Source: Acidobacteriota bacterium (GTDB lineage Bacteria; Acidobacteriota; Terriglobia; Terriglobales; Acidobacteriaceae). From it: a stretch of 64,000 bases of DNA. The notes under the pieces are model-generated. The model saw only the letters and a program-made list of their open reading frames with translations. It was not told where the DNA came from and made no database searches. The translations under genes and the position numbers were made by a program. This document shows positions 9,103 to 30,226 of this stretch, in pieces; position 1 is the stretch's first letter; each line of letters opens with the position of its first letter. Location: assembly GCA_013289875.1 (NCBI GenBank), contig JABCZC010000014.1:1-64000 (forward strand), given 5' to 3'.

Positions 9103-12100
9103 TCACGAATCGGTCATCAGGGCGTCTTTTTCGAGCGACATCATCATCTCCTGGAGCTCAGGTGTGCGCTTCCGTTGGAAGGGATGGAGATAGAGGTAAA
9201 TCACAGGTGTGACGTAAAGGGTCAGGGATTGAGAGAGAAGCAGGCCTCCAACGACTGCGATTCCCAGCGGACGGCGAGCTTCACCACCTACACCTCCGCC
9301 GAATGCGATCGGAAGGGCTCCCAGGAGTGCGGCCATAGTGGTCATCATGATCGGGCGAAAGCGCTGGAGACAGCCCCGGTAGATCGCATCTTCCGGGCTT
9401 AGATTTGTCCTGCGCTCGGCTTCGAGGGCGAGGTCAACAATCATGATGGCGTTTTTCTTCACAATGCCGATCAGCAGGATCACGCCAAGGAAGGAATAGA
9501 GGTTGAGATCTTCACCGAAGAGCAGCAAAGTCAGGAGCGCTCCTACTGCGGCTGGTGGCAGGCCGGAGAGGATGGTGATGGGATGAATGAAGCTCTCGTA
9601 GAGAACTCCCAGAACGAGATAGATCACCATGACGGCAATGACGAGCAGAAGTCCCAGGCCTTTGAGCGAGCTCTGAAACTGAGCGGCCGTTCCCTGGAGG
9701 GCGAAAGTCAACGTTGCCGGCATCCCGATCTCTTCCGCTGCCTGGCGGACAATTCTTGTCGCCGCGTCAAGTGAGATTCCGGGCTTGAGGTCGAACTCAA
9801 ATGTCACAGCAGGAAATTGACCTACGTGGTTAGCGGTCAGCGGAGCTACGGTCTGGGTGAGCGTGGTGACCGCGGAGAGCGGAACGAGCCGCCCTGTGTT
9901 CGACCTTATATATAGGTCTCCCAGGGTAGCCGGATCATGCTGGTACTGTGGCGAGACCTCAAGGACAACGTCATATCGCTGGGACGCCACCATGATCGTG
10001 TTGGCTCGGCGGTTTCCGTACGCGTCATAAAGAGTGTTGGCGATCATCTCGGGACCGACATTCAGTGACATGGCCAAGTCCCGCCGTATATCGACGTTGA
10101 CTCTCGGAGCACTCATCTGCAGGTCTGAAGAGACATTGGCCAATTCAGGCAGCGATTGCAGCTTTTCTTTCAGCTTGGGCGCCCATCGATACAACTCCTC
10201 CGCATCTGGGCCTTCGAGCGACGCAGAGTACTGCGAACGGCCTTCGTTCTGACCCAGGCTCACGAAGTCTCCCTGACGCAGATAGACATTCAGGCCCGGA
10301 ATGCGATTCAGCTTCTTCTGCAAATCGGCGATGATGATTTTTACATTCGGGCGCCGTCTATCCTGGACTAGATTGACCCAGAACCAACCTGAATTCTGAG
10401 ACTCGACGCCGGACAGATTGCTCTCCATCCATGGCGTGGTCGCAAGGACCTTATTCACCTGCTCGCCGTAGCTAACCATGCGATCGAAGGAGTTGTCCTG
10501 CGAGGCTTCCAGATGGCCGGAAAAATAGGGAACGTCCACAGCAGGCATGAAGCTTTTCGGCATGACGACAAAGAGGTAAACGGTCAGCACGGTCATAGCG
10601 ATGCTGACAGCGATAGTGGCCCTCCTGTGCCGCAATACCGCATCCAGTGAGCGCCTGTAGCCATTCTCCATCGCGGCATAGAGTTTTTCCGTACGCCTGT
10701 GGAACCAGTTATCGGCCTGTTCTCGCGAGGTTAGAAAGCGACTGCAAAGCATTGGGGTGAGCGTCAAGGCGGTCAGGCCGAGAGCAGTATCGATACCGAT
10801 ATGGTGATTGCGAATTCGCGAAGCAGGCGTCCGAGTATTCCGTTGAGAAAAACGATCGGGACAAAGACGGCCACCAGCGAAATAGTCATCGAGATGATTG
10901 TGAAGCCCACCTCGCGGGCGCCGTAGATCGCGGCCTGCAGCCGCGTCTTGCCCATCTCGCGGTGGCGCACAATGTTTTCGATCATCACGATAGCGTCGTC
11001 GACGATAAAACCGACCGAGAGCGTTATAGCCATCATCGAGAACATGTCCACCGAATAGTTGAGCAGTCGCATTACGATGAACAATCCGAGGATGGAGACA
11101 GGAATTGTGGCGCTTGCGACGATGGTCGAAGATGCCGTGCCAAGAAAGATGAAGATAACCATCACCACCAGGCCGATGGTCAGAATAAGAGTTCGATTGA
11201 CTTCGGCGATGGAATCACGGACCGTGTCGGCGTTATCGGCTAATTTGCCGAATGAAACGCCAGGGGGCATCGTTTCGCGCAGGGATTGGACGACTGCCTT
11301 GACCTGATCGGCAACCTCCACCGTATTCGCGCCGGGCTGTTTCCTGACGGCAAGAATAATGCTGCGGCGACCGTTGATCCAGAAGGTGCGCTTGTTATTG
11401 GTTGAGCTGTTGAAGACGGCCGCAACCTGATTCAGGCGCAGCGGCACGCCATCTCGATACGCAACGACCAGCTGCGAAAACTGGTCGGCAGACATGAGTT
11501 GGCTATTGGCCTGAAGCGAATAATCCCGTGCGTCGCCATACATTGTTCCCGTGGGGAGGTTGGCGCTGTTGCTGCTAAGCGCCGTGCGTATCTGCTCGAG
11601 ATCGAGGCCGTATGCAGCCAGCCTCGCTGGATCGGCCTGAACGCGGATGGCGGGATCTTCCGGGCCGTAGACCTGTACCTGCGAGACACCGTTCACCATG
11701 GAGATGAGCTTCGCGAAGACCTGATTGGCGTATTTCGCGAAGTCCTCATACGCGATCGTCGTTGAGGACATTTCGATCCAGATAATCGGTTCTTGTGCAG
11801 GATTCACCTTAGAGTAGGAGGGCGGCGATGGCATGTCGCGGGCAAGGCGCCGGCGGCGTGCGAGATCGCGGCCTGAACATCCTGTGCAGCTGCGTCCACG
11901 CTGCGGCTCAGGTTGAACTGGAGCGTGATGTTCGTCTCTCCAACGGAGCTGGAAGACGTCATGTGTTCGATGCCGGGAATTGTCGAGAACTCGCTCTCAA
12001 GTGGTGTGGCGACCGTCGATGCCATAGCGTCGGGGTTTGCTCCGGGCAGCGCTGCGCGCACCTGAATGGTTGGATACTCGACCTCCGGGAGATTGCTGAC

Positions 12101-12199
12101 GGGCAGAGAGAAGTAGCTCAGAACACCAAAACCTGCGATCGCCGAGATAAGCAGCGTGGTCGTGGTGGCGCGGCGAATGAAGAAGTCAGTCAATTGCAT
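9103..12199 (-). pseudogene. RND (HAE1/AcrB-type) efflux pump gene with two -1 frameshifts
   Basis: Three consecutive minus-strand reading frames join into one ~1030-residue inner-membrane drug/proton antiporter. The start is ATG 12199 (MQLTDFFIRRATTTTLLISA) behind AAGG. Frame 1 breaks at ALPATCHRR; adding one C to the CCC run (GGG at 11840-11842 on plus) restores LPRDMPSPPSYSKVNP. Frame 2 ends ISVSILLSA then TGA; adding one C at 10776-10777 restores LSALTALTLTPMLCSRF. Key residues survive: the TM4 pair in FIVDDAIVMIEN and the TM10 lysines in IVKKNAIMIVD. The last residues are EKDALMTDS. Either decay is very recent or the frameshifts are base-calling errors. No outer-membrane TolC-type gene is in the window. 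It follows the fusion protein gene in one transcript. Confidence 0.88.
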
Positions 12200-12229
12200 G
12201 GTCAACCTTATGCGGCCGGAGCGAGCGCG

Positions 12230-16254: not shown

Positions 16255-18360
16255 TCAGTGCAGCAGCACGGCGTCGATGTTGGCGATATACTTCCGCGAA
16301 CGCTGAGCTTCGTCGGTATCGGGGATGAGAGCAACTACGGTGCTGAAGTGTAGGCGGGCTTCTTTGAGCAGCTCGGTGTTGCCGTTGCCGTTGTACTCTT
16401 CGGCGTAGACGATGCCAAGGCGGTAGTTGGCATAGGGCTCGTCACGGACATACGTAAGGGCCTTCTGGCAGGATTCCGCGGCAGCCTGGAATTGCTTTTG
16501 AACCCACTGGCAATCGCAAATGCCTACATTGGCCTGAGCCCGCAGATCGCGCCAGATATCCTGCTGTGCGGCGCGCTTCTTAACGCCGAACCCAAAAAGG
16601 CTGCCAAGCAGATAATAGTTAAGCTGGCCACCTGCTCCGCTGTTGAAGTTGCTCAGTGATAGATATTGGTTATATTCCGGAAGCGCAGCCGGGCATTGCT
16701 TGGCCATCCGCTGCGCCTCGCCAAGCCACAGATGGGCTTCGGCATTGGCGGGCGTAAACTTCACGGCACGCTGGCCGGCGTCAATTGCCTGGTCGTAGCT
16801 GCCCTTGCGGACAAAGGCCTGAGATTCGAGGTACCAGGCCATGCCGTTGTTGGGATCACGCTGAATAACGGCATTAGTCTGGCGGATGGCTTCATCGTAT
16901 CCACCAGTGTCGAGGAGTGCGGCAGCGTAGCTGAGGCGAGCCTCGGAGTAATCATTATCGATGTCGATGGCGTTTTTAAGGTATGTCTCCGCCTGTTCAG
17001 GATCGTAGAGCGCTTGATAGGTACGGCCCAGATAGAGGGCCGCTTTGCTGTACTTAGAATCGATCTGCAGCGCCTTCTGGAATTCGACGGCGGCCTTCTT
17101 GTAGTTGTCGGCACCGCCGCGCGTGTAGAACTCCAGTCCTTTGTCGAATGGCTCTTCAGCGGCGTGGTTCCTCTGCCTGGCAATTATAATGCGAACGTTG
17201 ACGGTCGTTTCTTGCCCCGGATAAACCTGCTCTTCGCGCGGGCCATCAGGCTCATATCCAAGATGGACGCCCTTAATGGTGTGCGGTCCTGGCGCGATGC
17301 CAGGAAAGCGCTGTGGCTTCGTCTTGTCGATGACTCCCAGGCTCTTGCCGTCAAGCCAGACCTCGACTCCGTCCATGTTCGTCTGAAAGATGAGCGTGCC
17401 ATCGCGCGGTGCGCCGGGGCAATTCGGTCCGGCGCACTTTGCCGATCGAGGAGGGTTGTAGGCCAGAACCATGTTAGGGTCGAAGCTGCCACGATCTGAG
17501 GTCGGGTTCTGGAGCGTTTTGGTGGCCAGGCGAACGTTTGTGCGGACATAGTCGGCTAGTTCATCAGCAGTAACGATCCCATCTCCAGAGGAGTCAGCTT
17601 CGCCCTGCAATCCATGGATGACATAGTAGGTGAAGATGCCGTGGCCACCGCCCCACTGCGGACTCTCGAAGCTCTGCTCGCGGTCGCGACTGGCAGTGAG
17701 TGAAAAGGTTGAAGTGTTTAAGTCAAGAAGGCTGTGGTTCACCTGAGCGGTGTCGTCTTCGGGGGTAATCGCGCCACTGTGACAGGCGTCAGTGATGAGG
17801 ACCTTCCATTTCCCGTGAATCTGCGTGCCAATGGCTTTGCCTAAGTCCTCCATTGGGTATGCGGTGCCGGAGAGGTGCGAAACATCAACGTCGTTGGGCG
17901 CCAGATAGGCTTTGCCGCCAGCGATGAAGCCGTGACCTGCAAAGTAAACGAGCACTCGGTCCTCTGGAGTGGTAACGGAAGGCAGCCATTGCTCCAGTTC
18001 GTGCCGTAGATTGGCGAGAGAGGCTTCTTCGTTGATGAGCTTGTGGACATTCTCAGCAGGAAAATTTCCGCCTTGGGCACTGATAAGCGTGGTGTAGATG
18101 TCCTCGGCGTCACGGTCGGCGAACTGGAGTTGGGCCTTCGCGGGAAGGTGCGCATAGCGAGCGATTCCAACCACCAGCGCGTAGCTATGCGGAATGACGG
18201 GTGGCGCACCCGTCCTGGTCGGTGCGGGATTGGTCGCAGCTGGGCTTTCTTTGACGGTGGTCAGATCGCGCTGTTGCTCAGTTTGAGGCTGCGGAGGGTT
18301 CTGCGCGCAGAGGGTTGAGACAAATCCAAAGCCGATGGCAAGAAGAGAGATCCCGCGCAT
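16255..18360 (-). CDS. Exported caspase-like (C14) peptidase with EF-hand-like loop, PEGA and TPR domains
   Basis: 701 residues. A signal peptide (MRGISLLAIGFGFVSTLCAQ) sends it out of the cytoplasm. A caspase domain spans about 58-310: His143 in VYFAGHG and Cys193 in ITDACHSG form the catalytic dyad. An EF-hand-like calcium loop (SSGDGIVTADEL) lies near its end. A PEGA-like domain follows (about 318-395, DGVEVWLDGKSLG), then TPR repeats to the C-terminus (about 405-690). It is the last gene of a four-gene operon, six bases after the DUF4384 gene. The combination suggests a calcium-responsive protease presented on a protein-binding scaffold in the periplasm. Its substrate is unknown. A TPR fragment with similar sequence lies at 22.1 kb. 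Confidence 0.9.
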   Translation of the reverse strand: MRGISLLAIGFGFVSTLCAQNPPQPQTEQQRDLTTVKESPAATNPAPTRTGAPPVIPHSYALVVGIARYAHLPAKAQLQFADRDAEDIYTTLISAQGGNFPAENVHKLINEEASLANLRHELEQWLPSVTTPEDRVLVYFAGHGFIAGGKAYLAPNDVDVSHLSGTAYPMEDLGKAIGTQIHGKWKVLITDACHSGAITPEDDTAQVNHSLLDLNTSTFSLTASRDREQSFESPQWGGGHGIFTYYVIHGLQGEADSSGDGIVTADELADYVRTNVRLATKTLQNPTSDRGSFDPNMVLAYNPPRSAKCAGPNCPGAPRDGTLIFQTNMDGVEVWLDGKSLGVIDKTKPQRFPGIAPGPHTIKGVHLGYEPDGPREEQVYPGQETTVNVRIIIARQRNHAAEEPFDKGLEFYTRGGADNYKKAAVEFQKALQIDSKYSKAALYLGRTYQALYDPEQAETYLKNAIDIDNDYSEARLSYAAALLDTGGYDEAIRQTNAVIQRDPNNGMAWYLESQAFVRKGSYDQAIDAGQRAVKFTPANAEAHLWLGEAQRMAKQCPAALPEYNQYLSLSNFNSGAGGQLNYYLLGSLFGFGVKKRAAQQDIWRDLRAQANVGICDCQWVQKQFQAAAESCQKALTYVRDEPYANYRLGIVYAEEYNGNGNTELLKEARLHFSTVVALIPDTDEAQRSRKYIANIDAVLLH

Positions 18361-18366
18361 ATGAGC

Positions 18367-19116
18367 CTACCTGTGTGCCAGCCGAAACTGATAGATCAGG
18401 GGACCATCCGCGCCGTTGGCTGGCGCGACAACGGTGCTGTCATGCTTGTTAATGACCGTTATATCGCGCGGACTCATAGCGGGAATGACGGGTAACTGCG
18501 AGGGAACAGCGTCATCCTTGCCAACCGCGCGTGGACCGGCCAGTATGTCAATGCATTCGCCGCGTGCGCGGAAGACTGCGTCGTCGCATCGTGGAAGCAA
18601 CTCGGCGGGCGCGGTGGGTGGCGGGGGAGCGGCGGGCAGCGGCTGGACACCATCCTGTGGCGGATTGGACGGGGCGGATCTTTCAAGCCGCACCGGGCTA
18701 ATCACAAAGTAGATGGTCTCATACCCAGGCGGATTGTCGACCCGAAACCACGTGCCACGGGTTGCGGGAATGAGATATTCCTGGTCGCGCTCAATGCGGT
18801 TGGCATCCGGACCATCTTTGGCCGGAAAGAGCAACAGGTATTTGCCCGAAGTGCTCTGATCCATGACATAGAGATATCCATCGAAGGATGACTTAAAGCG
18901 GAAACGCACCAGGTCTCCGGAATGGAAGACGCGTTGCGGGCTGGTAACCTGCACGCCTCCCTTGACCTGGCGCTCGACAGTGATCTGCGTGTGTAGACTC
19001 TGCGCGAAGAGAACGCTGAAGAATGACGAGCTTGACAAAATGCAAAGAGTTAACAGGATGACACAGATGAAGTGTCTACTTGTGCGTGAAACTGCATTCT
19101 GGCGGCCGTCATTCAT
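18367..19116 (-). CDS. DUF4384-domain secreted protein B
   Basis: 249 residues from ATG 19116 (MNDGRQNAVSRTSRHFICVI), whose first eight bases overlap the end of the upstream gene (ATGAATGA). A longer frame to 19257 exists only because it lies over that gene. A hydrophobic segment (FICVILLTLCILSSSSFFSV) acts as signal or anchor. The DUF4384 core follows: VFHSGDLVRFRFKSSFDGYL, then YVMDQSTSGKYLLLFP. The C-terminal part is Pro-rich. DUF4384 domains commonly sit next to caspase or kinase modules and are thought to be binding modules; the ligand is unknown. It is a paralogue of the preceding gene. Confidence 0.85.
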   Translation of the reverse strand: MNDGRQNAVSRTSRHFICVILLTLCILSSSSFFSVLFAQSLHTQITVERQVKGGVQVTSPQRVFHSGDLVRFRFKSSFDGYLYVMDQSTSGKYLLLFPAKDGPDANRIERDQEYLIPATRGTWFRVDNPPGYETIYFVISPVRLERSAPSNPPQDGVQPLPAAPPPPTAPAELLPRCDDAVFRARGECIDILAGPRAVGKDDAVPSQLPVIPAMSPRDITVINKHDSTVVAPANGADGPLIYQFRLAHR

Positions 19117-20005
19117 GATCGAGCACGAGCTTTGCGACGACACGCGATCCGTTGGATTCTGCGGAGAGCGAGTTGACGACGTAAACGGCCTTTTCGCTGT
19201 GCTGGTTGCTGTTGTTGGCGGAGCTGTTGACCTGCTCCTGCACGGCAACCAGATCACGGCTGGCGAGCTGCTCTACTAATTGGTCAGTGATACGGTTAGC
19301 GGCCTCCGACGTTTCAAGAGAGGAGGTTGGGACAGCGGTTGGCTCGGGCTTCTTCTCCTGCAGGCCAAAGATCGCGCCGTCAAGATCGTTTATCGGGTTC
19401 ACGCTCAGAAGGATAAACAGACGCTCTTTGCCAGACTGCTTGTTCAGCTCGAATGCTCCGTCATTGGGTATCTCATAAACCTGGCCGGCATCAATGTAGT
19501 TCGAGTCTTTGGTGGCGTCCTGGCTGGGAAAGATGGGCGACCAATTGCCGCTCGAGCCTTGCTGAATGATGTAGAGATATCCAGAGCGGTTAGCCATCAC
19601 ACTAAGCTTTACGTGATCGCCGCTGTGAAAGACTGTGGACGGCAGGACTTCAACGTATCGCCCGCTGGGATCTCTTTGAAGCAAAGTGTAGCGGAGTCCG
19701 AGACGAACGTCGGTGAGGCTAACCAGGTGCGGCTGCGCACCGTAGCCGTTGGCAACGACCTTTTTGGGATCGATCTGACGCTTCGCTGATGGCGCAGGAC
19801 GGGTGGATGTTTCCTCCTTTTTGGGTTTCGAGTCCGGCGGCTTGGCTGGCTTGGACGTAGTAGTCCCGGGATTGGGCGACACACTCACCAGATCGCTTGC
19901 CGACCAGAAGACATCGCGGGCGCCGATATCGGGCGGCAACGTCTGCTGCTGGCCCAACCCTCCGTTGCAGACAAAAAGAATGCCGACCAAGACTGAAATT
20001 CGCAT
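19109..20005 (-). CDS. DUF4384-like secreted protein A
   Basis: 298 residues with a signal peptide (MRISVLVGILFVCNGGLGQQ). A Pro/Lys/Thr-rich linker (about 45-75) is followed by the DUF4384-like core VFHSGDHVKLSVMANRSGYL, then YIIQQGSSGNWSPIFPS. A helical, Gln/Asn-rich tail ends VVAKLVLDHE. It starts six bases after the kinase gene and overlaps the next by eight. Two divergent DUF4384 paralogues in tandem suggest a heteromeric receptor or adaptor for the kinase and caspase; that is inference. Confidence 0.8.
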   Translation of the reverse strand: MRISVLVGILFVCNGGLGQQQTLPPDIGARDVFWSASDLVSVSPNPGTTTSKPAKPPDSKPKKEETSTRPAPSAKRQIDPKKVVANGYGAQPHLVSLTDVRLGLRYTLLQRDPSGRYVEVLPSTVFHSGDHVKLSVMANRSGYLYIIQQGSSGNWSPIFPSQDATKDSNYIDAGQVYEIPNDGAFELNKQSGKERLFILLSVNPINDLDGAIFGLQEKKPEPTAVPTSSLETSEAANRITDQLVEQLASRDLVAVQEQVNSSANNSNQHSEKAVYVVNSLSAESNGSRVVAKLVLDHE

Positions 20006-20011
20006 AGCACG

Positions 20012-21925
20012 TCACCTTGAGAATAGCGCTTTCAGGCGGGAGAAAAGCCTGGGGGTGGGAAGGTCGCGCACACAACGAAATCCGATGACCGGCGACTGTT
20101 GGTCGGAAGGAAAGCCTCTCCGCATGAAACATAGAAAGAATACATCACCGTGCGGAGAAAAGCTGCCCCCCTTGATCGTGTGCCAGATTCTCGAGAATCT
20201 GACCGTCCCCAGTACGGTACGCATATCCGTAAATTCTGTTTCTCCAGCTGGAAAGGTGGACGCCGTCCATTCAAAGACATTACCGGCCATGTTAAGCGCT
20301 CCGTTAGGGCTTTTGCGATCGGGAAATGAATTCACTGGCTTCAAGCTAGCAGGAACGCCGCTGGTCCAAGGCTCCTGACCCCACGGATAGCGCCGTCCAT
20401 CGACGCCGCGCGCGGCCTTTTCCCACTCCTCTTCTGTGGGCAGGCGTTTTCCCGCCCACGCGGCAAAGGCCCGCGCGTCTTCATAGGTCACGCCAGCCAC
20501 GGGGTTGTCGGGAGCGGTGGTAAAATCGGCCGACTTTGGCGCAGTGTGTCCAGTCGCGTCTACGAATTGCTTGTACTCTTTGTTGGAGACTTCCATCTCG
20601 TCCACGTAGAAACCCCTTAGCGACAAGGTCTGACGGGGCCGGGGCGAATCCGGAGAGTTTTCTCCGTAGATGAAATCCCCAGCCGGAACCAGCAGCATTC
20701 GTCCGTACGCATCGTTCAGCTCAGGCGCGGGCAGCGCCGGCACCAAAGACAGAAACAGAACTGCGACCACAACAATCGCCGCGAAGACCCCACTTGCTAT
20801 CCAGAGGAATCTCCGCTTGTCGCGCGCTTTCGGAATTGGAAGTGGAGGAGCTGGAGGAGCCGTCGGAGCTGGAGGAGGTATCGTGGCGAACTGCGGCCGC
20901 GGCATGTCAAGGAATATCGGCGCAGCGGACACAGACCGGGTTGCCTTCGGTATAGGATGTGTCGTCACGGATGGGGGTGGGCAGATCACGGCAGTTGCAG
21001 AAATCGTGCTGACAGGCTCCACCAGTACCGCTTCCAAAGCTGCATTAACTTTGGGGCGAAGCTTCCCTGGACCTGAAGTCGCACCGAACTTCTGTAGTTC
21101 GTCGAGCAATTCCTGGGGGCCCTGATAGCGGTCTTCACGCCGCTTTTGCAGCAACTTCTGCACAAACACCTCGCAGGCTTCGGGCAGAGACGGATCAGCT
21201 GCCCGAAGGAGGGGGACAGGCGCGGCGAGGTGCGCCATTTGGATCGCTACTATGGAATCAGCGTCAAAAGGGCGGCGGCCGGCGAGCAGCTCGAAGAGAA
21301 CAATCCCCAGAGAATAAAGATCGCTACGCAGATCGCAGGGTTCGCCGCGGATCTGTTCGGGACTCATATAGTACGGCGTTCCTAGGCTTTCTCCGGGACG
21401 GGTGAGGCCGGTTGCGACATCGGCAATCTTGGAGATGCCGAAGTCGAGGATTACGATGTGCCCGGTCTTGTCGAGTAGGATATTGGCGGGCTTCAGGTCG
21501 CGGTGCACGATGTGTTTGGATTCAGACCAGACCAGGCCTGTGGCGGTCTGGGCGACCACGTTGAGGGCATCCGCTGGCGCAAGCTTCCCGTGCTCGGAAA
21601 GATAGCTCGACAGGTTTTCACCGGAAATGAATTGCATGATGAGGTAATGCAGACCGTTTCCGGACCCGATGTCAAAGATAGGAACAATGTTCGGATGGCC
21701 TGAGAGAGACGCGGCGGTGCGCGCCTCCTGCTCAAAACGAGCGACAACCTGCGGATCCTGGGCGAGATATTCGGCCAGGACTTTGACCGCAAAGGCCCCC
21801 CCGTGTCCACTGTGTCTCGCGAGGAAAACCTGGGCCATGCCGCCACCGCCTATGTGGCACAGCACTTCATATTTGCTGCCCAATATAGTCTGTAGCTCAA
21901 CTATTTGTTGCTTCTCATTTTGCAC
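20012..21925 (-). CDS. Ser/Thr protein kinase with transmembrane segment and FGE-sulfatase-type domain
   Basis: 637 residues. The N-terminal Hanks-type kinase is complete: Gly loop IGGGGMAQV (25-33), Lys48, HRDLKPAN (141-148), DFG (161-163) and the activation segment GTPYYMSPE (182-190). A Pro-rich linker (about 315-370) leads to one membrane helix (about 373-397). The extracytoplasmic C-terminus (about 405-625) has the formylglycine-generating-enzyme/sulfatase-modifying-factor fold: MLLVPAGDFIYGENSPDSP, GKRLPTEEEWEKAARG and IKGGSFSPHG, ending GFRCVRDLP. In kinases this fold usually serves as a sensor rather than an oxidase; I did not establish whether active-site cysteines are present. It leads the operon. 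Role inferred: transmembrane signalling to the exported DUF4384/caspase proteins. Confidence 0.9.
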   Translation of the reverse strand: MQNEKQQIVELQTILGSKYEVLCHIGGGGMAQVFLARHSGHGGAFAVKVLAEYLAQDPQVVARFEQEARTAASLSGHPNIVPIFDIGSGNGLHYLIMQFISGENLSSYLSEHGKLAPADALNVVAQTATGLVWSESKHIVHRDLKPANILLDKTGHIVILDFGISKIADVATGLTRPGESLGTPYYMSPEQIRGEPCDLRSDLYSLGIVLFELLAGRRPFDADSIVAIQMAHLAAPVPLLRAADPSLPEACEVFVQKLLQKRREDRYQGPQELLDELQKFGATSGPGKLRPKVNAALEAVLVEPVSTISATAVICPPPSVTTHPIPKATRSVSAAPIFLDMPRPQFATIPPPAPTAPPAPPLPIPKARDKRRFLWIASGVFAAIVVVAVLFLSLVPALPAPELNDAYGRMLLVPAGDFIYGENSPDSPRPRQTLSLRGFYVDEMEVSNKEYKQFVDATGHTAPKSADFTTAPDNPVAGVTYEDARAFAAWAGKRLPTEEEWEKAARGVDGRRYPWGQEPWTSGVPASLKPVNSFPDRKSPNGALNMAGNVFEWTASTFPAGETEFTDMRTVLGTVRFSRIWHTIKGGSFSPHGDVFFLCFMRRGFPSDQQSPVIGFRCVRDLPTPRLFSRLKALFSR

Positions 21926-22123
21926 CGGGTGGCCATTATACGTTAGTGCCTCGCGTCTTAATCGCGTTGGCTTGCTTCGCTACCAGGCAGTGCAATCCCT
22001 GCGCGCCACTCATCACCCCGTGATGATACTGGTGTCGGACCAGAGCTCGATCAAGCCTTCTCGTACCGAGATGACCGATCTCTTTCGTTCTCAATGACCG
22101 CATCCACGGATGTGAGCGCCGCT

Positions 22124-22236
22124 GGCTGTACTTGGGATCGAGTTGCAAAGCCTGCTGAAACTCGTCGGCTGCCTTGCGGTAATTCTGTTCGGAGTCCTTC
22201 TTGTAGGCGACTCCCTTAACAAAAACATTTCCAAAT
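22124..22236 (-). pseudogene. TPR-repeat gene remnant
   Basis: One minus-strand stretch reads FVKGVAYKKDSEQNYRKAAD then EFQQALQLDPKYS, a clear tetratricopeptide unit close to DNYKKAAVEFQKALQIDSKYS of the caspase protein at 16.3 kb. Upstream and downstream codons in the same frame are not protein-like. It is probably a leftover of a duplicated operon component between the kinase gene and the next operon. Confidence 0.6.
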
Positions 22237-22248
22237 TTTTCCCTCCCA

Positions 22249-23025
22249 CTACTTGGGAACGCCGACGTGAACGGCTCGGAAGAGCTGCGGAGCACCGACA
22301 GTACCGGGGCCGGTGGTGATAATGGTCGGGGCGCTGGTACCAGTGACAATCGCTCCGGCGACGACGCCGCCTACCACCGCCCCGGCTGCCACAAGAGAGA
22401 CCAAAATGATGTGAGTCGACAAGAAGCCGGCGATGCCCGCGCTGCTCGCGCCAGCGGCACCGGCAACGATGACGTTAGTCTGTGAGATTGTCGTATGGTT
22501 GGTCAGATTACCTTTACTGGCGGTGACATTGATATGAAATTGGCCGGTATGGGTATTGGGACGGTAACCTCTGGCAACGATCTGTCCGTTGGCATCGGTC
22601 TGACCGGAAAAGGTCTTTGCACCGCCAAGAAAGCTGGCTCCGGCATTACCGCCCTGGCTATCGATACTGAAGAGAACGACCGCGCCGGCGACCGGTTTGT
22701 GGTTTTCGTCTTCGACCTGGATGATTGGCTCGCGGGCCGTACGCTGTTTGATGTTGTTGGAAACGTCTTCGCCTTCGAGAATGACGATCTTCAAGGCGGG
22801 GGCCGGCGGCCCGGTGGAAGCCACGGCCTGTGCAGGTCCCTCCGCGAGCTTCGACGGAGCCACGTTCATTGAGGCAATGGTTTCCCGGAGCGCCGACTTG
22901 GGAGCAGGTGCCGCTGGAAGTTCGTCTTCGGCTAACACGAAGGTTGGCAATAACAACACCGATATCAAAGCGAGCGCCTGGATTCGCAAGCAGCGGGTCC
23001 TATGGAACTTGAAGGTAGCCGTCAT
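22249..23025 (-). CDS. Secreted/anchored protein with one Ig-like (Big-1 type) domain
   Basis: 258 residues from ATG 23025, which overlaps the stop of the giant SBBP gene (ATGA). The longer frame to 23172 is only overlap. A signal peptide (ALISVLLLPTFVLAEDELPA) is followed by an Ala/Pro-rich region and a Big-1-like fold: PIIQVEDENHKPVAGAVVLF, then GQTDANGQIVARGYRPNTHT. The C-terminus carries a long hydrophobic Gly/Ala/Val segment (IILVSLVAAGAVVGGVVAGA) that could anchor it. Last gene of the three-gene operon. Likely surface or periplasmic; function unknown. Confidence 0.8.
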   Translation of the reverse strand: MTATFKFHRTRCLRIQALALISVLLLPTFVLAEDELPAAPAPKSALRETIASMNVAPSKLAEGPAQAVASTGPPAPALKIVILEGEDVSNNIKQRTAREPIIQVEDENHKPVAGAVVLFSIDSQGGNAGASFLGGAKTFSGQTDANGQIVARGYRPNTHTGQFHINVTASKGNLTNHTTISQTNVIVAGAAGASSAGIAGFLSTHIILVSLVAAGAVVGGVVAGAIVTGTSAPTIITTGPGTVGAPQLFRAVHVGVPK

Positions 23026-26000
23026 TGTGAACTTACCCCGGAAGAGGTCCCGACCGCGTTCGTCAGAGTCACGCTGACGCTGGCTATCGACGAAGGGGAC
23101 CCCGAGAGTGTGAATTGTTGGCTGTACGTGAAGGCGCTCCCGTACTGCGCGGAACCGGCGGTAGTGTACCAAGCTGAGAAGAGCGTAGCTGCAGGTACTA
23201 TAACGGTCTTCTGAGCAAGCGTCGCACCGTTCGCGGCCGTGAAGCTGAAGGTGGCCGACTGGATCTCGCGAGTGGTGGAGTATCCGGTCGTAAGAACAAT
23301 AAGAGTATTGCCGGAGGTACTGATCGATACGGCAGATATCGTAGGGGCGGCTTTTGGCACGACAATCGTGATGGGCACGACGTTGGCTGGGGTAATGTTG
23401 ACCCCGGCAGCAGTCAGCCGCAGCGTGACGGTGATGGTCCCGGAGATCGTGCCAACTTGCACCATCACCGCTGGAGTGGTGGTGGTGTTCGCCGGGAGCG
23501 TGAAGTTGAGCGTCGTGCCTCCGCTGGCGAATTGCACTTGAGGATTGGCCGGGTTACCGGGATCTGGAGCGAAGGTGAGAGTCATGGTTCCTGCAAGATC
23601 CACAGGATATGGCTGATTCAGTTGGAAAGTTAGCGGCGGTTGCTCGCCGGGAGACGTGGTCGATGGTCCGCTGAAGGTTACATTAAGACCGGACGGCACA
23701 ATGGTAAACACCGCCGGCCCTGAGCTTGAATCCGAAGCGGAATCGGTCACTGTGACGGCCGCAGTTCCGGTTGAGGCAAGCAGGGCCGCCGGCACTACGG
23801 CGGTTAGCTGGGTCGCACTGACGAAGGTGGTGGTTAACGGAATGGAGTTGAAATTCACCACTGAGGTTGAGGTGAAGTTCGCGCCCGTAGCCGTGATCGT
23901 GGTATTGCTCGCTCCAACTGTCGCTCCAACCGGTGAGATCGTAGTGAGCACAACCGCAGGCAGCGATGTAGTTTCTCCCATGCCGCTGATCTGGAACGAC
24001 TGCGGCGAGAAGACGGCGTTATCGGTGACGGACACGGTGAGGTTCCGCGTGCCTGCGGCGGTCGGTTTGAAGCCGATCTGTAGCGTGCAGGACCCGCCAT
24101 TCGGAGCCAGCGTCGCCGGACTCGTCAGACATGTGCCGCCGATCAGCGAAAAGTCTGTCGCGTTGCCGCTGAGTGCAAAGCTCTCCCCAGAAGCGATTTC
24201 AACCGCCACATTGCCGATATTGCTGAGGGTGACCGTCAGAGGTGTGGCAGCCGTGCCCACGTTGGTTGTCGGGAAGACCAACGCGCCGGCGGGGAAGACC
24301 TCCCGGATCGCGTTGTTTCCGGTGTCGGAGAAGTACAGATTGTCTTTCAAATCGAATGCAAGCGCCGACGGGGCGTTGATCCCGGCGCTTCCGGCGTTAT
24401 CTAGACCACCGACCACGGTAGTGATGATGCCGGTCGTGTCGATCTTGCGAAGGCGATTGTTTCCGGAGTCCGCGATATAGAGATTTCCGGCCGAATCCAA
24501 ATCCACGTCGTTCGGGAAGTTCACCTCGGCGGCCAGAGCTGGGCCGCCGTCTCCCCTGAAGCCGGGAGTGCCGTTGCCAGCGATGGTGGTGATCACTCCA
24601 CTTGCATTCACCTCGCGGATACGGTCGTTGTTATAGTCGGCGATGAAGAGTTTACCTGTATTGTCGACGACCACTCCTGACGGGCAGTTCAACTGCGCGG
24701 CCGTCGCCGGGCCGCCGTCGCCGCTGAAGCCGTCAGTGCCATTGCCCGCCACCGTAGTAATCGTTCCGCTGGTATCGATTTTTCGGACGGCAGCCGGCCC
24801 GCATTGCGGCACATAGAGATTGCCCGCCGTATCGAATCGCGCTCCTTGCACCTCAGAGAGCGTCGCGCTGGTTGCCGGGCCGCCGTCCCCCGCGAATCCG
24901 AACTTTCCATTTCCGGCAACGGTCGTGATGGTTCCGGTGGTATCGACCTTGCGGATGCGGGCATTGAGCGTGTCCATGATATAGAGATTCCCCGCTGCGT
25001 CGAGGTCCACTCCGAACGGCGCGTTCAGCTCGGCCGCGGTTGCCGGGCCGCCATCGCCGCTGAAGCCTTGCGTGCCGTTGCCGGCGACGGTGGTGATGTT
25101 TCCCAAGGTGTCGACCTTACGAATGACATTGTTGCCTATGTCAGCGATGTACAGGTCGCCATGGGTGTCGAAGGCGATTCCGTCCGGGGTGTTCAGCTCC
25201 GCAGTCGTAGCCGGGCCGCCATCGCCGCCGTACCCTGCCGTCCCGTTCCCGGCAATGGTCTTCAGGTTGCCGGGGTTTACCTGCAGCACGCCGCCCGTTC
25301 CCGTGCCGCTCAGGTTTACCCCCAGCGAGGGGACTGGAGAGTTGTCCGAGATCAGAAGCCCGGCGGATTTAGCGCCGATCCCCGCCGGAGCGAAGGTAAT
25401 GCTGATCTGGCAGTTCGCCCCGCCCGCCAGCGTCGCGGGACAGTTGTTGGTCTGAAGAAAATCCGAGGGATTGACTCCCAGGTCGAGGATGATTCCAGTA
25501 ATCTCGTAAGCGGTCGTCGAGGTATTGGCGAGGGTCACGACCTGGGCCGGGCTTTGTGTCCCGACCGTCTGACTGCCGAAGGATAGTGACGTCGCGGGGG
25601 TGACCTGTAAAGGTGGCGCGGCCACGGTAACGACGGCCGCATTGGAAGCCCCGCCATCGGGATTGACAACCGTCAGCGTCAACGTTCCTGCGGTCGACAA
25701 TTGAGCCGCCGTGAGGGTCGTGGTGAGCTCGGTGGCGGAGACAAATGTCGCGGCCTGATTAGTCCCATTGACACTTACGACGGCCCCGTTGAGGAAGTTC
25801 GTACCAGTGATGGTCACCACCGTGTCCCCGCTGCCGGCGTACACCGCATTCGGATTAAGCGACGTAATCGTCGGCGCGCGTTGGGAAACGGTGTAACTCA
25901 AAGGCTGTGAAACGCTTGCCGCAAGATTCGTGTCCCCAGGATAGGACGAGGTCAGAAAGTCCACTCCGGGCGGAAGCGCGCTCGTGCTGAATGTTGCGAC

Positions 26001-29000
26001 ACCGCCGGACAGCGTCCCCGTTCCAATCGCCAAACCCCCATCCAAGAACGTGACTGTTTCGCCGTCGGTGGTAAAACCGTCGCCGTTGAAGGGATCCAAG
26101 GTCGCTGTAAGCGTCACACTCTGCCCGACAACGCTCGAAGCAGGATTGGCAGTCAGCGTCAAAGTCGTTGCCGGGAGCCCCGTTGAGGGGGTCAGGCCTA
26201 GACTGGATCCGCTTGCGCCGTAGGTTGCGTCTCCAGAGTAAGCGGCAATTACGTCGTAGAGATTGTCCGTAAGTTGGTTGGTGGTGTAGGTCGCGGTCCC
26301 GGTCGGGTCGAGCGTGACCGTCGTCGCCTTTACAGAATTAACATAAAAGTTGACCGTCCCAGTCGGAACTCCAGTCCCGGTAGCTGGTTTCACGACGGAC
26401 GTAAAGGTAATATTGGCTTCCGCTGTTGTCGAAGATAGCGTGGTCGTGGTGGGAAGAAAGGTGACTCCGGCAGTAGCTCCGAATTTCGCAATAAAGGAAT
26501 TGCCGCCCGGTCCGCCGCCGGCGTTGTTCACTGTCTGGAGCCCATTTTTTGTGACCGGGAAGTCATAGGAATAGGCATATCCGGTCAAATAAGCATTGGC
26601 GGATCCGTCAAGAGCGATGTCATAAAAGAAGTCCCCTTCGAAATAGGAGTACTCGGTTCCTCCATAGGCACCGGCTCCGCTTCCACCCAGGTAGGTGGAG
26701 TATTTCAGAGCGCTCCCGTTCGAGTTGACCTCGGTAAAAAACCCTGAATCAACGATCTGGGCGCTGCGTGGACCGGACTGAAAGGCATCGCTGGTCACAG
26801 GAAAATCGCGCGATTCGGTAGCGCCGGTAACGTAAGCATTGCCTGTGGTATCGATGGCGATACCAGTGCCGAAATCTCCCACACCACTATCGCCGGCAGT
26901 GCTCGCGATCCCGCTGCCGCCAATGTAGGTCGAATACATCAACGTCGAGAGGGTTGGATTGAGTTTGCTGACGAAAATGTTAGTTCCAAGATTGGCCGCG
27001 GCCTTGTTCGCCGTCTGGTACGCGCCCTGACTGGTCGGAAAATCTGTCGATGTGGTAACTCCAACTACATAGGCGTCGCCCGAAGCATCCAGAGCCACTC
27101 CAATGCCGTCATCGCCATTATCCAGGACATCCAGATCTCCAGTTCCACCCGTCTTTCTACCTGTTCCACCGAGGTAAGTGGAGCCGACCAGCCCGGTACC
27201 GCCGGCGTTGAATTTACTCACGAACGCATTCGCAGCAACATTTGCGGTACCGTGGTTAACTTGCTGATAGCCGCTGGTTGTAGCCGGAAAATTGGCTGAA
27301 AATGTGAATCCAGTTACATACGCTTCGTCATTGGCGTCGACCGCAATACCATAACCTCTTTCACCCGCGCCTTCGTCTTCATCTTCGGGCAGACTGGAGG
27401 GACTGACGCCGTTTCCGCCAAGATAAGTCGAATAAACAAGCGAACTTCCATTTGGACTAAGCTTGGTCACAAACGCGTTCGAGGCGAGGTTTGCGGCGGC
27501 TTTGTTGCTTAACTGATAAGCGCCTGAGGTAGTAGGAAAGTCAGTTGAATACGCAGTCCCAACAACATACGCGCTGCCCGCGGCATCCACGGTCATTCGC
27601 AGCGGGGAATCGCCTTCGAAAACGTCAGTGGTGATGGCTAAACCGCTGCCGCCCAGATAGGTGGAATACGACAGTGCCGTGCCGTCAGGGCTGAGCTTCG
27701 ATATAAATGCATTTTGAGCATCGTTAGCATATGCCTTGTTCTGTGTTTGGAATGCACCCTGAGTCACAGGAAAATCGCTGGAAAAGGTTTCGCCGCAGAT
27801 ATATGCGCTCCCCGCTCCATCTACCGCGATTCCGTAAGCATCGGTTCCCTCGGAATGCGAGGTGCTCGCGCTCCCACCGAGATAGGTGGCATAGACAAGC
27901 GCAGAGCCGGCCGCATTGAGCTTGGCTACGAATCCAACCAGGTTGTCCGCGGTATTAGTGGTTTGGAAGGCGCCCGTGGTGACTGGGAAGTCCGCATCTG
28001 CTGTGAACCCGACGACGTAGATGCTGCCAGCGGCGTCTACCGCGATCGCTGTTCCGGCGTCTTCCGTGCTTCCACCGAGGTAGGTTGAGTAGCTTAGTGT
28101 CGGATCGATGACCAGCGCTTTGCTGCGGTCGTACTTGCCGACTTTGAAGCCTACCGTGTGGTTTGCGAACAGTACATACTGGCCTTTAACCGGGACACGT
28201 TGGCCTTTCTCGTCCTGGTAGATGACTGGCTTCTCGAAAGCAACTTCCCCATTGTTGCCCGAAATGTGCAAATTACCAAGGTCGTCAAGTGTTAGCTGCT
28301 GCGCGCCTGAAAAATGCAATGCGACTTGTCTGGGATTGGCATTTGGCGCAATCACGAAATCGTACTCGAGCCTGCGCTGATTGCCGTAGTAGATGAGGTC
28401 AATGCCTGGGTAAACACCGGTGTAATGGACCTTCGCGAACGTAGGCACCCGGGTGCGCCATCGGGCCGGGTCGTTACCGAGAAAATAATTGGCGGTACCC
28501 GGTAGCTCATCGGAGCCGCTCACCTGTGCTCGACTGTTGGCCCCCTTCAACTCCATTCGTAGTGTGTCTGTCCCGAGCAAACTGGCAGACATCTTTGCCA
28601 GTTTCCTGCGTTGCGCACCGCTAAGAAAGGGCCAGAGCATCCGCCAATGTGCGATCTGCTGCATCTTCTCTCTATCTGCGCGCGACATTGGCCTGCTTAG
28701 CGCCAGGACGGCTTCATTGGACGTCAGATAGAAGCCATACCCTTGCCCCCTCGCCAGGAATTTCACACTTTGATCCGCCTGGCCCTGGTTCACCTCAAAA
28801 CTAAGCGGTAGTCCGCCGTACGTGGCGGCGACTGTCGGCGTGGCGGGTCCCAAAGCGTATTGCGCAGGGTGGCTTTGCGGCGAAGATATCTTCTCGGAAA
28901 CAGCTGTCTGCGCCTGCGCGGCCGCAGGTCGGAGTGCCGCTTGGCCAAGTGCTAGGAAAAAAAGCGCAACTGCAGCAAGGCGCGTCAACCTCCCCCAGTC

Positions 29001-29060
29001 GATTCGCCGTCTGGAGGCGCCTGGAAGATGCAAGGTGGTAATTGTCACCATGTCGCTCAT
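23022..29060 (-). CDS. Giant secreted SBBP / Ig-like / NHL repeat protein
   Basis: About 2012 residues from ATG 29060 (MSDMVTITTLHLPGASRRRI); the frame is open to 29324 but lacks sense there. A signal segment (LAAVALFFLALGQAALRPAA) is followed by a DUF7948-like N-terminal domain. Eight or so SBBP beta-propeller repeats lie at about 26.5-28.1 kb (YSTYLGGS, AIAVDAAGSIYVVG, FPVT). Then come an Ig-like Big_3_5 domain (~26 kb), an IPT/TIG domain, an ASH/HYDIN-like domain (~25.4 kb), five or six NHL repeats (24.3-25.3 kb; ITTVAGNGTQGFSGDGGPAT), another ASH-like and another TIG domain, and a beta-rich tail. NHL and SBBP propellers bind proteins or glycans. This is an extracellular scaffold or adhesin; its partner is unknown. 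Middle gene of an operon. Confidence 0.88.
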   Translation of the reverse strand: MSDMVTITTLHLPGASRRRIDWGRLTRLAAVALFFLALGQAALRPAAAQAQTAVSEKISSPQSHPAQYALGPATPTVAATYGGLPLSFEVNQGQADQSVKFLARGQGYGFYLTSNEAVLALSRPMSRADREKMQQIAHWRMLWPFLSGAQRRKLAKMSASLLGTDTLRMELKGANSRAQVSGSDELPGTANYFLGNDPARWRTRVPTFAKVHYTGVYPGIDLIYYGNQRRLEYDFVIAPNANPRQVALHFSGAQQLTLDDLGNLHISGNNGEVAFEKPVIYQDEKGQRVPVKGQYVLFANHTVGFKVGKYDRSKALVIDPTLSYSTYLGGSTEDAGTAIAVDAAGSIYVVGFTADADFPVTTGAFQTTNTADNLVGFVAKLNAAGSALVYATYLGGSASTSHSEGTDAYGIAVDGAGSAYICGETFSSDFPVTQGAFQTQNKAYANDAQNAFISKLSPDGTALSYSTYLGGSGLAITTDVFEGDSPLRMTVDAAGSAYVVGTAYSTDFPTTSGAYQLSNKAAANLASNAFVTKLSPNGSSLVYSTYLGGNGVSPSSLPEDEDEGAGERGYGIAVDANDEAYVTGFTFSANFPATTSGYQQVNHGTANVAANAFVSKFNAGGTGLVGSTYLGGTGRKTGGTGDLDVLDNGDDGIGVALDASGDAYVVGVTTSTDFPTSQGAYQTANKAAANLGTNIFVSKLNPTLSTLMYSTYIGGSGIASTAGDSGVGDFGTGIAIDTTGNAYVTGATESRDFPVTSDAFQSGPRSAQIVDSGFFTEVNSNGSALKYSTYLGGSGAGAYGGTEYSYFEGDFFYDIALDGSANAYLTGYAYSYDFPVTKNGLQTVNNAGGGPGGNSFIAKFGATAGVTFLPTTTTLSSTTAEANITFTSVVKPATGTGVPTGTVNFYVNSVKATTVTLDPTGTATYTTNQLTDNLYDVIAAYSGDATYGASGSSLGLTPSTGLPATTLTLTANPASSVVGQSVTLTATLDPFNGDGFTTDGETVTFLDGGLAIGTGTLSGGVATFSTSALPPGVDFLTSSYPGDTNLAASVSQPLSYTVSQRAPTITSLNPNAVYAGSGDTVVTITGTNFLNGAVVSVNGTNQAATFVSATELTTTLTAAQLSTAGTLTLTVVNPDGGASNAAVVTVAAPPLQVTPATSLSFGSQTVGTQSPAQVVTLANTSTTAYEITGIILDLGVNPSDFLQTNNCPATLAGGANCQISITFAPAGIGAKSAGLLISDNSPVPSLGVNLSGTGTGGVLQVNPGNLKTIAGNGTAGYGGDGGPATTAELNTPDGIAFDTHGDLYIADIGNNVIRKVDTLGNITTVAGNGTQGFSGDGGPATAAELNAPFGVDLDAAGNLYIMDTLNARIRKVDTTGTITTVAGNGKFGFAGDGGPATSATLSEVQGARFDTAGNLYVPQCGPAAVRKIDTSGTITTVAGNGTDGFSGDGGPATAAQLNCPSGVVVDNTGKLFIADYNNDRIREVNASGVITTIAGNGTPGFRGDGGPALAAEVNFPNDVDLDSAGNLYIADSGNNRLRKIDTTGIITTVVGGLDNAGSAGINAPSALAFDLKDNLYFSDTGNNAIREVFPAGALVFPTTNVGTAATPLTVTLSNIGNVAVEIASGESFALSGNATDFSLIGGTCLTSPATLAPNGGSCTLQIGFKPTAAGTRNLTVSVTDNAVFSPQSFQISGMGETTSLPAVVLTTISPVGATVGASNTTITATGANFTSTSVVNFNSIPLTTTFVSATQLTAVVPAALLASTGTAAVTVTDSASDSSSGPAVFTIVPSGLNVTFSGPSTTSPGEQPPLTFQLNQPYPVDLAGTMTLTFAPDPGNPANPQVQFASGGTTLNFTLPANTTTTPAVMVQVGTISGTITVTLRLTAAGVNITPANVVPITIVVPKAAPTISAVSISTSGNTLIVLTTGYSTTREIQSATFSFTAANGATLAQKTVIVPAATLFSAWYTTAGSAQYGSAFTYSQQFTLSGSPSSIASVSVTLTNAVGTSSGVSSQ

Positions 29061-29119
29061 ACAACCCTCAGCTGTGACTTGCCGCCCCAACGTCACTCCA
29101 TCGCCGAAACAGAGCAGCG

Positions 29120-30226
29120 CTACATCGCGCTCTTGGGGGTGAGCGTAGGTAGAGTCCCGGCCGTCGCGATTGCCGGAATAAAGAGAACTCGCGGAGAAGC
29201 GTTTCCTGCGTCCACAATCCAGAGCGGACCACCAGCGGCAGTCACCAGACGCACCGTTGTGGCCACCCCCGCAGCATTCGCAGACCCATTCAGTGCCAGC
29301 ACCTGGCTCGGCGCGCAAGAGCAATGTACCTTAGTTGCCGCAGCCACACCGGTCAGATCGATTCGCAGAACATCTCCATTGTGGTTAGCCGCCACCACCC
29401 AGCGGCCATTGGACGTGATGTCCAGCGCCACCGGCGCCGTGATACCTCCTGCGGGCGACAAGGCCGAGGAAGAAGGCGTTGTATTCACCCGCGTAATTGC
29501 TGTCAGCGCACCGCTTCCGCCATCGGCGACCACCAGCTCATCGCTATTGGGAACGAACTGCATTCCGCCGAATGCCTGCGTCGTTGCAACTTGTGCCCCA
29601 GCCGCCTGTCCGACGAATGCAACGATTGAGACATTGCTTTGGCTTGAACCGGTGGCCAAGGCGACCGTGCCTGTATCGCTGGCTGCAGTGCCCAGAACAG
29701 AAGCCGCCGAAGACAAATTCAGGGTACGAGCCGACGGGAACGTGGGTAACCCGGAGATTACTGAAGCTATGCTTGCCCCATCTGCGTTTTTTCCGGTTAT
29801 TACGGCGTAAGCTCCTGAGTTACTCAGGATCAGCGAGGTAGCACCGGCGACGCTCGCCACGTTGGTGAGCGGGCCGCCGGTCACAGAGCCTTGAAATACG
29901 CCGCCATTCGCATCGAGGAACAACGCCATGCCGGATATACCAGAGGTGGCGCTGGCTATGAAACTAATCCCCTGGCTGGGGGCGGAAAAGATGGCGGCCC
30001 CGATGATCGACGCTCCCGCTAAACCCTGGATTGGGCGCAAAGACTGGCTGGGCGGATCCCAGACATACCCGAGAATCGGCCCCGTGGGAGTCTGAGATTG
30101 GGATTGAATCGTGCCTGATGGCGAAGACAGGGAAGAATTGATGGCTGTGCCGCACCCAGCGACCGTCAACGAAAGCACCCCGGCTACGGCCGCCGCAATC
30201 CTATGCAGTCGCTTATGACAAAACAT
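29120..30226 (-). CDS. Predicted lipoprotein with beta-propeller-like repeats
   Basis: 368 residues with a lipoprotein signal (AAAVAGVLSLTVAGC, lipid Cys25). The rest is Ser/Ala/Gly-rich with repeated strand patterns such as GMQFVPNSDELVVADGGSGA and LDITSNGRWVVAANHNGDVL, resembling a seven-bladed quinoprotein/YVTN-type propeller. No enzyme motif was seen. It is the first gene of the operon, 59 bases before the SBBP giant. Probably an envelope-bound binding protein. Confidence 0.75.
   Translation of the reverse strand: MFCHKRLHRIAAAVAGVLSLTVAGCGTAINSSLSSPSGTIQSQSQTPTGPILGYVWDPPSQSLRPIQGLAGASIIGAAIFSAPSQGISFIASATSGISGMALFLDANGGVFQGSVTGGPLTNVASVAGATSLILSNSGAYAVITGKNADGASIASVISGLPTFPSARTLNLSSAASVLGTAASDTGTVALATGSSQSNVSIVAFVGQAAGAQVATTQAFGGMQFVPNSDELVVADGGSGALTAITRVNTTPSSSALSPAGGITAPVALDITSNGRWVVAANHNGDVLRIDLTGVAAATKVHCSCAPSQVLALNGSANAAGVATTVRLVTAAGGPLWIVDAGNASPRVLFIPAIATAGTLPTLTPKSAM

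Follow-up and report, generated by a model that had tools for sequence, protein, structure and literature searches.

An exported caspase, two DUF4384 proteins and a transmembrane Ser/Thr kinase form a candidate envelope signalling module in Acidobacteriota

Introduction

What does a caspase do when it is encoded with a signal peptide, next to a transmembrane Ser/Thr kinase and two proteins of the DUF4384 family? This question is raised by a locus in a 64,000-nt stretch of Acidobacteriaceae DNA (contig JABCZC010000014.1, from a 5.05 Mb assembly in 184 contigs), hereafter the window, to which all coordinates refer. Its four genes encode, in order, the kinase, DUF4384-A (d1), DUF4384-B (d2) and the caspase. 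Bacterial caspases are usually treated as cytoplasmic enzymes of cell death or immunity, and for few of them is a partner or pathway known. The literature mentioning DUF4384 is sparse and partly concerns caspase homologs, and the portions of it available to us describe no such system. A preliminary description of the window, made from its sequence, had proposed a signalling or conflict system. Our reading, to which we give a probability of about 0.5, is that the locus encodes an envelope signalling module in which DUF4384 proteins couple the exported caspase to the transmembrane kinase, from outside to inside.

Results

DUF4384 genes lie near kinase and protease genes across the phylum

The strongest evidence came from surveying the phylum. 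In other Acidobacteriota families (L057, L058 and L059; L and G numbers are our labels for loci and genomes), a single kinase-transmembrane-DUF4384 protein lies upstream of the orthologous caspase gene and overlaps it by 4-11 bp, and a protein like 'up', an Ig-like neighbour of the window caspase (Table 1), then follows the caspase. The transmembrane (TM) helix of this fusion was above the hydropathy cut in L057 and not in L059. The DUF4384 ectodomain fused to kinases in these distant families has the architecture of d1, and profile scores of the fused domains favour DUF4384-A (101-125 vs 76-80 bits). Assignment of the fused partner to A rather than B by tree was set aside, with three monophyletic groups, no outgroup and one fusion row cut short. 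Because DUF4384 is fused to the kinase, as its ectodomain, and to the caspase (L083, below), and also lies beside both, it would be the connecting part of the module.

We then considered how widely this arrangement recurs, in a sample of 297 genomes with 92 DUF4384 matches and 35 positive genomes, whose loci were scanned roughly with local domain profiles. With Pfam models, 20 of the 92 DUF4384 matches had a C14 domain no more than 5 kb away, where 0.56 would be expected. Among 63 loci with a local DUF4384 call, a kinase was present within 3 kb in 45 (31 of them kinase-DUF4384 fusions) and a C14, CHAT or trypsin-like protease in 36; 25 loci had both and 56 had at least one. Unfused kinase, CHAT, C14 and S1 genes peaked within the first kb of DUF4384 and fell to near zero beyond 3 kb. 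Pfam analysis of individual loci revealed exchange of the protease: kinase-FGE, two DUF4384 proteins and a trypsin-like protease (L086, L088); kinase-FGE, DUF4384, a trypsin-like protease and a C14-PEGA-PDZ protein (L085); an FGE protein, two DUF4384 proteins and a trypsin-like protease (L087); kinase-DUF4384, DUF4384 and TPR-CHAT (L079, L080); and a kinase, DUF4384 and a C14-DUF4384 fusion (L083). The N-termini of the inspected trypsin-like S1 (L085-L088) and CHAT (L079, L080) proteins resemble export signals by eye. Beyond the phylum there was a single plasmid match, in Paraburkholderia, where a DUF4384 gene directly follows a C14 gene. In three further loci, L124, L140 (G503 contig C51) and L142 (G612 contig C4), several C14 genes are clustered, and DUF4384 genes occur within 10-50 kb.

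This recurrence with different proteases suggests a previously undescribed way in which bacteria report on or control extracytoplasmic proteolysis. We tentatively propose, with a little less than even confidence, that in Acidobacteriota, and perhaps in Paraburkholderia, DUF4384 is an extracytoplasmic adaptor between transmembrane Ser/Thr kinases and exported proteases that can replace one another (caspase, CHAT, trypsin-like), and that the kinase would read extracytoplasmic proteolysis.

DUF4384-B and the caspase form the constant pair

To map the locus within the family, a caspase profile was run on 398 Acidobacteriaceae genomes and 22 loci were mapped. Full-length caspase orthologs were found in 19 of the 398 genomes, with a patchy distribution that includes two of nine genomes in the genus. 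The four-gene order of the window, whose absence from other genomes was to refute the preliminary proposal, recurs in at least three other genera, represented by Paracidobacterium acidisoli (L025), G119 (L036) and G137 (L040). In these loci and the window, kinase and d1 lie upstream of the caspase in the same direction; in L047-L050 they are convergent behind it. Thirteen loci lack the kinase unit (among them L026, L027, L035, L037-L039, L041, L043-L046 and L063). In contrast, d2 lies immediately upstream of the caspase in every family locus examined. Gene order thus indicates that the constant unit is DUF4384-B plus caspase, with kinase and DUF4384-A separable. The four genes had initially been presented as the system. 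Their order does recur, but they are one arrangement within a larger whole: the conserved unit proved to be d2 and the caspase, and three surface genes are part of the neighbourhood as well.

These three genes (p29, big and up) form a surface cassette that adjoins d2 and the caspase in most loci and occupies 22249-30226 in the window. The lipobox Cys of p29 is invariant, big (Ig/FG-GAP/NHL) ranges from 841 to more than 2,700 amino acids (aa), and up is Ig-like with a TM helix and a conserved tail. An 'up' profile gave strong matches in 20 of the 398 genomes, and these include 17 of the 19 genomes with a caspase (Fisher p 6e-25); in the remaining two, which lack 'up', the contigs are cut. Since the complete genome G265 carries the cassette without a caspase, the cassette is a partner and not an obligate part. 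Separately, L072 and L077 contain the p29-big-up cassette alone, with no caspase gene nearby and with 'big' divided into two genes.

The kinase-less (type-B) loci usually have, behind the caspase, a small TM protein, a beta-barrel-like protein with CarboxypepD_reg and a multihaem LVIVD cytochrome. As a candidate Pycsar effector we considered tm268, the neighbour of the caspase in these loci, and rejected it; PycTM was found only in some members, at E 0.001-0.015, below the cut-off. At L046, the caspase is separated from the small TM protein by a CHASE2-adenylate/guanylate cyclase and a DUF928 protein (9320-12042 of that locus, plus strand), which would add a sensor of a second kind next to this caspase.

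The neighbours bear on another explanation, in which the exported caspase is a maturation protease for nearby surface proteins (big, up and p29, or the porin or cytochrome elsewhere), much as a housekeeping convertase would be, while the kinase merely regulates the operon or the envelope. Such a role would suit a caspase tied more constantly to the surface cassette than to the kinase, the beta-barrel-like protein and multihaem cytochrome standing in place of the kinase in type-B loci, and the conserved C-terminal tail common to 'up' proteins. We nevertheless consider it unlikely. No cleavage motif common to the surface proteins was found by eye, and the kinase-DUF4384 fusion directly upstream of the caspase, together with kinase and DUF4384 genes beside unrelated proteases, argues that kinase coupling is part of the logic.

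The four genes are intact and constrained

All four genes are intact on the minus strand in open reading frame (ORF) analysis, separated from kinase to caspase by a 6 bp gap, an 8 bp overlap and a 6 bp gap (Table 1). The start of d2 was set at the ATG at 19116, which yields a signal peptide; the mechanical ORF extends to 19257. The window caspase is the sole C14 gene of the genome, and d1 and d2 are its sole DUF4384 genes. Against orthologs, the ratio of nonsynonymous to synonymous substitution rates (dN/dS) was ~0.05-0.16 in all four genes, with dS near saturation. In Nei-Gojobori comparisons with L036 and L025, dN was 0.11-0.30 and dS was at least 1.5 or saturated in all four, the caspase being the most constrained. 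These rates point to strong purifying selection on each gene and, being low in all four, argue that the gene set is not a chance one.

Table 1. Features of the kinase-DUF4384-caspase locus and the adjoining surface genes in the window
Feature	Position	Strand	Basis or remarks
Transmembrane Ser/Thr kinase	20012..21925	-	Kinase domain aa 19-268, TM aa 380-398, FGE-type domain aa 409-620 (Pfam, hydropathy, FGE alignment)
DUF4384-A (d1), predicted exported, partner of kinase	19109..20005	-	Pfam, locus mapping
DUF4384-B (d2), predicted exported, directly upstream of caspase	18367..19116	-	Pfam, alignment, structure model
d2 segment PRCDDAVFRARGEC, two invariant Cys (Cys-x10-Cys) with invariant R and G between	18553..18594	-	Alignment
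C14 caspase, predicted exported: signal peptide, catalytic domain aa 60-289, PEGA-like domain, TPR array	16255..18360	-	Pfam, alignment
Caspase catalytic His143 codon	17932..17934	-	Invariant in alignment
Caspase D191-A-C193 codons, metacaspase-type DACHSG motif, Asp at -2 from catalytic Cys	17782..17790	-	D and C invariant
EF-hand-like loop DSSGDGIVTADE within caspase domain	17560..17595	-	Conserved 19/19; weak match to polcalcin EF-hand
Caspase remnant, putative second copy (TPR start, 35 aa, up to 60% identity), between 'up' and kinase	22122..22223	-	Similarity search
'up', predicted exported Ig-like protein (Big_1/MG4-like), one C-terminal TM, conserved short tail (..TVGAP)	22249..23025	-	Profile, hydropathy
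'big', predicted giant exported Ig/SBBP/NHL protein, conserved C-terminal region	23022..29060	-	Start inferred; ORF extends to 29324
'p29', predicted lipoprotein, lipobox VAGC, no Pfam family, propeller-like repeats by eye	29120..30226	-	Sequence

The window caspase matched Peptidase_C14 with E 3.3e-14 (53.6 bits vs a cut-off of 21.4). The catalytic residues H143 and C193, as well as D191, are invariant in all 19 orthologs (numbering in the 19-ortholog alignment is +20). By these features the caspase would be classed with the metacaspases and orthocaspases. DACHSG, in which the Asp stands two residues before the Cys, is the metacaspase form and is linked to basic P1 specificity (compare PMC7475262); the caspase is probably Arg/Lys-specific. 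Residues of the EF-hand-like loop are mostly invariant in the 19 orthologs (including D256, G259, D260, G261, D266 and E267) and the metal-ligand pattern is kept throughout, so that calcium may influence the enzyme. TPRs were also called by Pfam, whereas PEGA fell below the reporting level in the window protein and was called in the ortholog at L057. The packing of the genes and their domains, the intact His143/Cys193 pair, the EF-hand-like loop and the TPRs had thus all been correctly recognised in the preliminary description, and its PEGA assignment holds at reporting level for the ortholog. A PDB sequence search with d2 and the caspase domain returned no useful relatives.

Both DUF4384 proteins matched PF14326 (E 9.3e-15 and 1.3e-13; 51.2 and 54.9 bits; cut-off 27). 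The N-termini of d1, d2 and the caspase are all signal-peptide-like by eye. There are two invariant Cys in d2 and two in the TPR region of the 19 caspase orthologs, and these pairs would suit an oxidising, extracytoplasmic location. Structure models of d2 and the caspase were shallow, and a fold search with the d2 model gave only weak matches, mostly to beta-sandwich folds, with E above 0.03.

In the kinase protein, Pfam identified Pkinase (E 2.3e-47) and FGE-sulfatase (E 2.2e-43, 149 bits vs a cut-off of 23.3), separated by the single TM helix. Of the human FGE active-site residues Cys 336 and 341, only the second aligns in the window domain. Because the first catalytic Cys is missing, the domain looks sensor-like and is better read as a ligand-binding domain of the C-type-lectin type than as an enzyme. 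The kinase is not of the PASTA type, scoring 307 bits against the NF033483 cut-off of 450 and having no PASTA repeats. From these topology signs, everything but the kinase domain is predicted to lie outside the cytoplasm.

Around these genes, 'up' and 'big' overlap by 4 bp in the window. The caspase remnant scored 47 bits against a best of 26 among 20 shuffles, with 78% DNA identity over 63 bp to the window caspase, and appears to be the trace of a rearrangement. Within 'big', four NHL-type repeats (24528-25123) are spaced at 168 nt and are 71-74% alike. Further away, an AcrB-type resistance-nodulation-division (RND) pump gene (9103-12205, minus strand) is split into three frames through frameshifts, while the syntenic gene of the genus relative at L070 is one frame; the window copy would be either a pseudogene or an assembly error.

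The kinase association appears old and the locus appears to have moved between genera

In the caspase tree, the kinase-bearing loci fall in two separate clades, and caspases beside kinase-DUF4384 fusions lie far outside. The simplest reading of this tree, in which long branches meet at the root, is that the kinase association predates the family split and was then lost. The d1 and caspase trees show the same branching among the eight kinase-bearing loci. G202, from the same genus, and G183 are placed away from their genus mates, which indicates transfer between genera. In the island-lacking genomes G066, G117 and G141, the left flank is syntenic: all three have a LytS/LytTR-type pair, to which G117 adds the RND pump. 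None of them showed a right-flank gene, and the idea of a clean empty site was therefore rejected.

These trees, together with the surveys, also bear on whether four functionally separate genes are simply held together by vertical descent. The scarcity of the caspase within the family and the membership of the close four-gene relatives in one clade would be expected in that case. It is contradicted by the gene fusions, and also by rearranged orders with the same partners, by genome-level co-occurrence and by the phylum-wide distance peak; we therefore regard it as very improbable.

Patchiness and transfer between genera would suit a conflict or programmed-death system, in which the FGE ectodomain detects a kin cell or an invader, the signal passes through the kinase and the exported caspase kills the cell or its neighbour. 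FGE/C-type-lectin sensors, kinases and trypsin, caspase or CHAT effectors are the parts list of conflict systems (PMC7159879; PMC10907252), and the same swapping of proteases is seen here. However, the protease and its partners are exported, whereas the peptidase-adaptor conflict systems, known from multicellular bacteria, act in the cytoplasm. No NTPase, effector-associated domain (EAD), EACC1, VMAP or toxin gene was recognised near the locus. No relative of the caspase was found in the plasmids searched, nor of d1 in the phages searched. PADLOC gave no complete catalogued defence system, only generic single matches to kinase or caspase domains and none to the DUF4384 proteins. Nothing in this evidence points to defence or cell killing, and the conflict role first suggested for the locus now seems improbable.

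Discussion

The envelope signalling module that we favour would work as follows. DUF4384-B and the caspase would act as a pair outside the cytoplasm, presumably in physical contact, with DUF4384-A beside the kinase ectodomain and the surface cassette (lipoprotein, giant Ig protein and Ig-TM protein) as the exposed face, serving as bait or substrate. The outside trigger may act through the FGE domain, by a ligand, through the EF-hand loop, by calcium, or through the surface proteins when these are damaged or bound, and it would alter caspase activity or the contact between caspase and DUF4384. Caspase activity, occupancy or products could then be reported through the DUF4384-A/FGE ectodomain to the kinase, which would phosphorylate cytoplasmic targets. 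Signalling from outside inward with DUF4384 coupling had been suggested from the window sequence, and the kinase-TM-DUF4384 fusions upstream of the caspase and the phylum survey back this idea.

Several observations weigh against this module. Kinase and d1 are missing from 13 of the 21 loci in the family, which means that the caspase pair can do without a kinase, and at about 40% of the DUF4384 loci none of the protease types searched for lies within 3 kb. The caspase model is poor, with predicted local distance difference test (pLDDT) values under 50 over residues 172-296, and does not confirm the active-site geometry. The Arg-rich Cys-Cys segment of d2 was considered as a protease bait loop; its conservation is attractive, but it is modelled as a short helix, which weakens the idea, and we retain it as a minor one only.

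The exported caspase described here has a constant partner in DUF4384-B, a surface cassette and a transmembrane kinase, and the fusions indicate which parts should touch. What an exported bacterial caspase does physiologically, and a first role for DUF4384, can thus be tested directly in harmless soil bacteria that are in culture, with Granulicella aggregans as a carrier of the caspase pair and Paracidobacterium acidisoli as a carrier of all four genes.

Comparison with known systems

The kinase shares the kinase-TM-ectodomain layout of PknB/Stk1 transmembrane Ser/Thr kinases; the ectodomain is PASTA in those proteins, whereas it is FGE or DUF4384 in the Acidobacteriota kinases. Its kinase domain is also similar to those of the defence kinases PD-T4-6 and MAD6 (PADLOC, NCBIfam). 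The match is essentially limited to that domain, the ectodomain and operon differ, and the MAD6 cut-off was not reached.

With orthocaspases and metacaspases (C14B; MaOC1 of Microcystis, Xanthomonas-type; PMC3501461, PMC7475262), the window caspase shares the C14 p20 domain, the His/Cys dyad and D-x-C-H-S-G. Members with TPR, FGE and DUF4384 domains, some with N-terminal signals, have been reported (PMC3501461, PMC7475262). The window caspase differs in being, by its N-terminus, exported, in combining PEGA and TPR, and in having separate DUF4384 proteins and a transmembrane kinase as fixed partners. Unlike MaOC1, which does not depend on calcium, the window caspase has a conserved EF-hand loop.

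In diversity-generating retroelement (DGR)-diversified FGE/C-type-lectin sensors (PMC10907252), an FGE-type sensor domain, kinases and caspase, CHAT or trypsin parts are held in common with the present locus. No DGR template/variable repeat was found near the window FGE domain, a distant template elsewhere in the genome not having been searched for, and the only repeats were those of the NHL type in 'big'.

Along with the orthocaspases, the nearest known kinds are the intracellular EACC1-caspase, VMAP and EAD-peptidase systems (PMC7159879; PMC8195603), in which small adaptor domains link sensors to interchangeable trypsin, caspase or CHAT proteases. The caspase scored below the EACC1-associated family NF047832 (95.8 bits vs a cut-off of 140), and no EACC1 gene (single TM, Gly patch) lies 5' of it, the upstream gene being DUF4384 in all family loci. 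Those systems are cytoplasmic and use NTPases, whereas in the DUF4384 set the adaptor and proteases are predicted to be extracytoplasmic and the relay would be a Ser/Thr kinase. As part of the phylum-wide proposal above, and with the same tentativeness, DUF4384 may play outside the membrane the role that effector-associated domains play inside. A similar parts list would here serve outside the membrane and together with a kinase; the resemblance to intracellular conflict systems would be one of logic and not of location.

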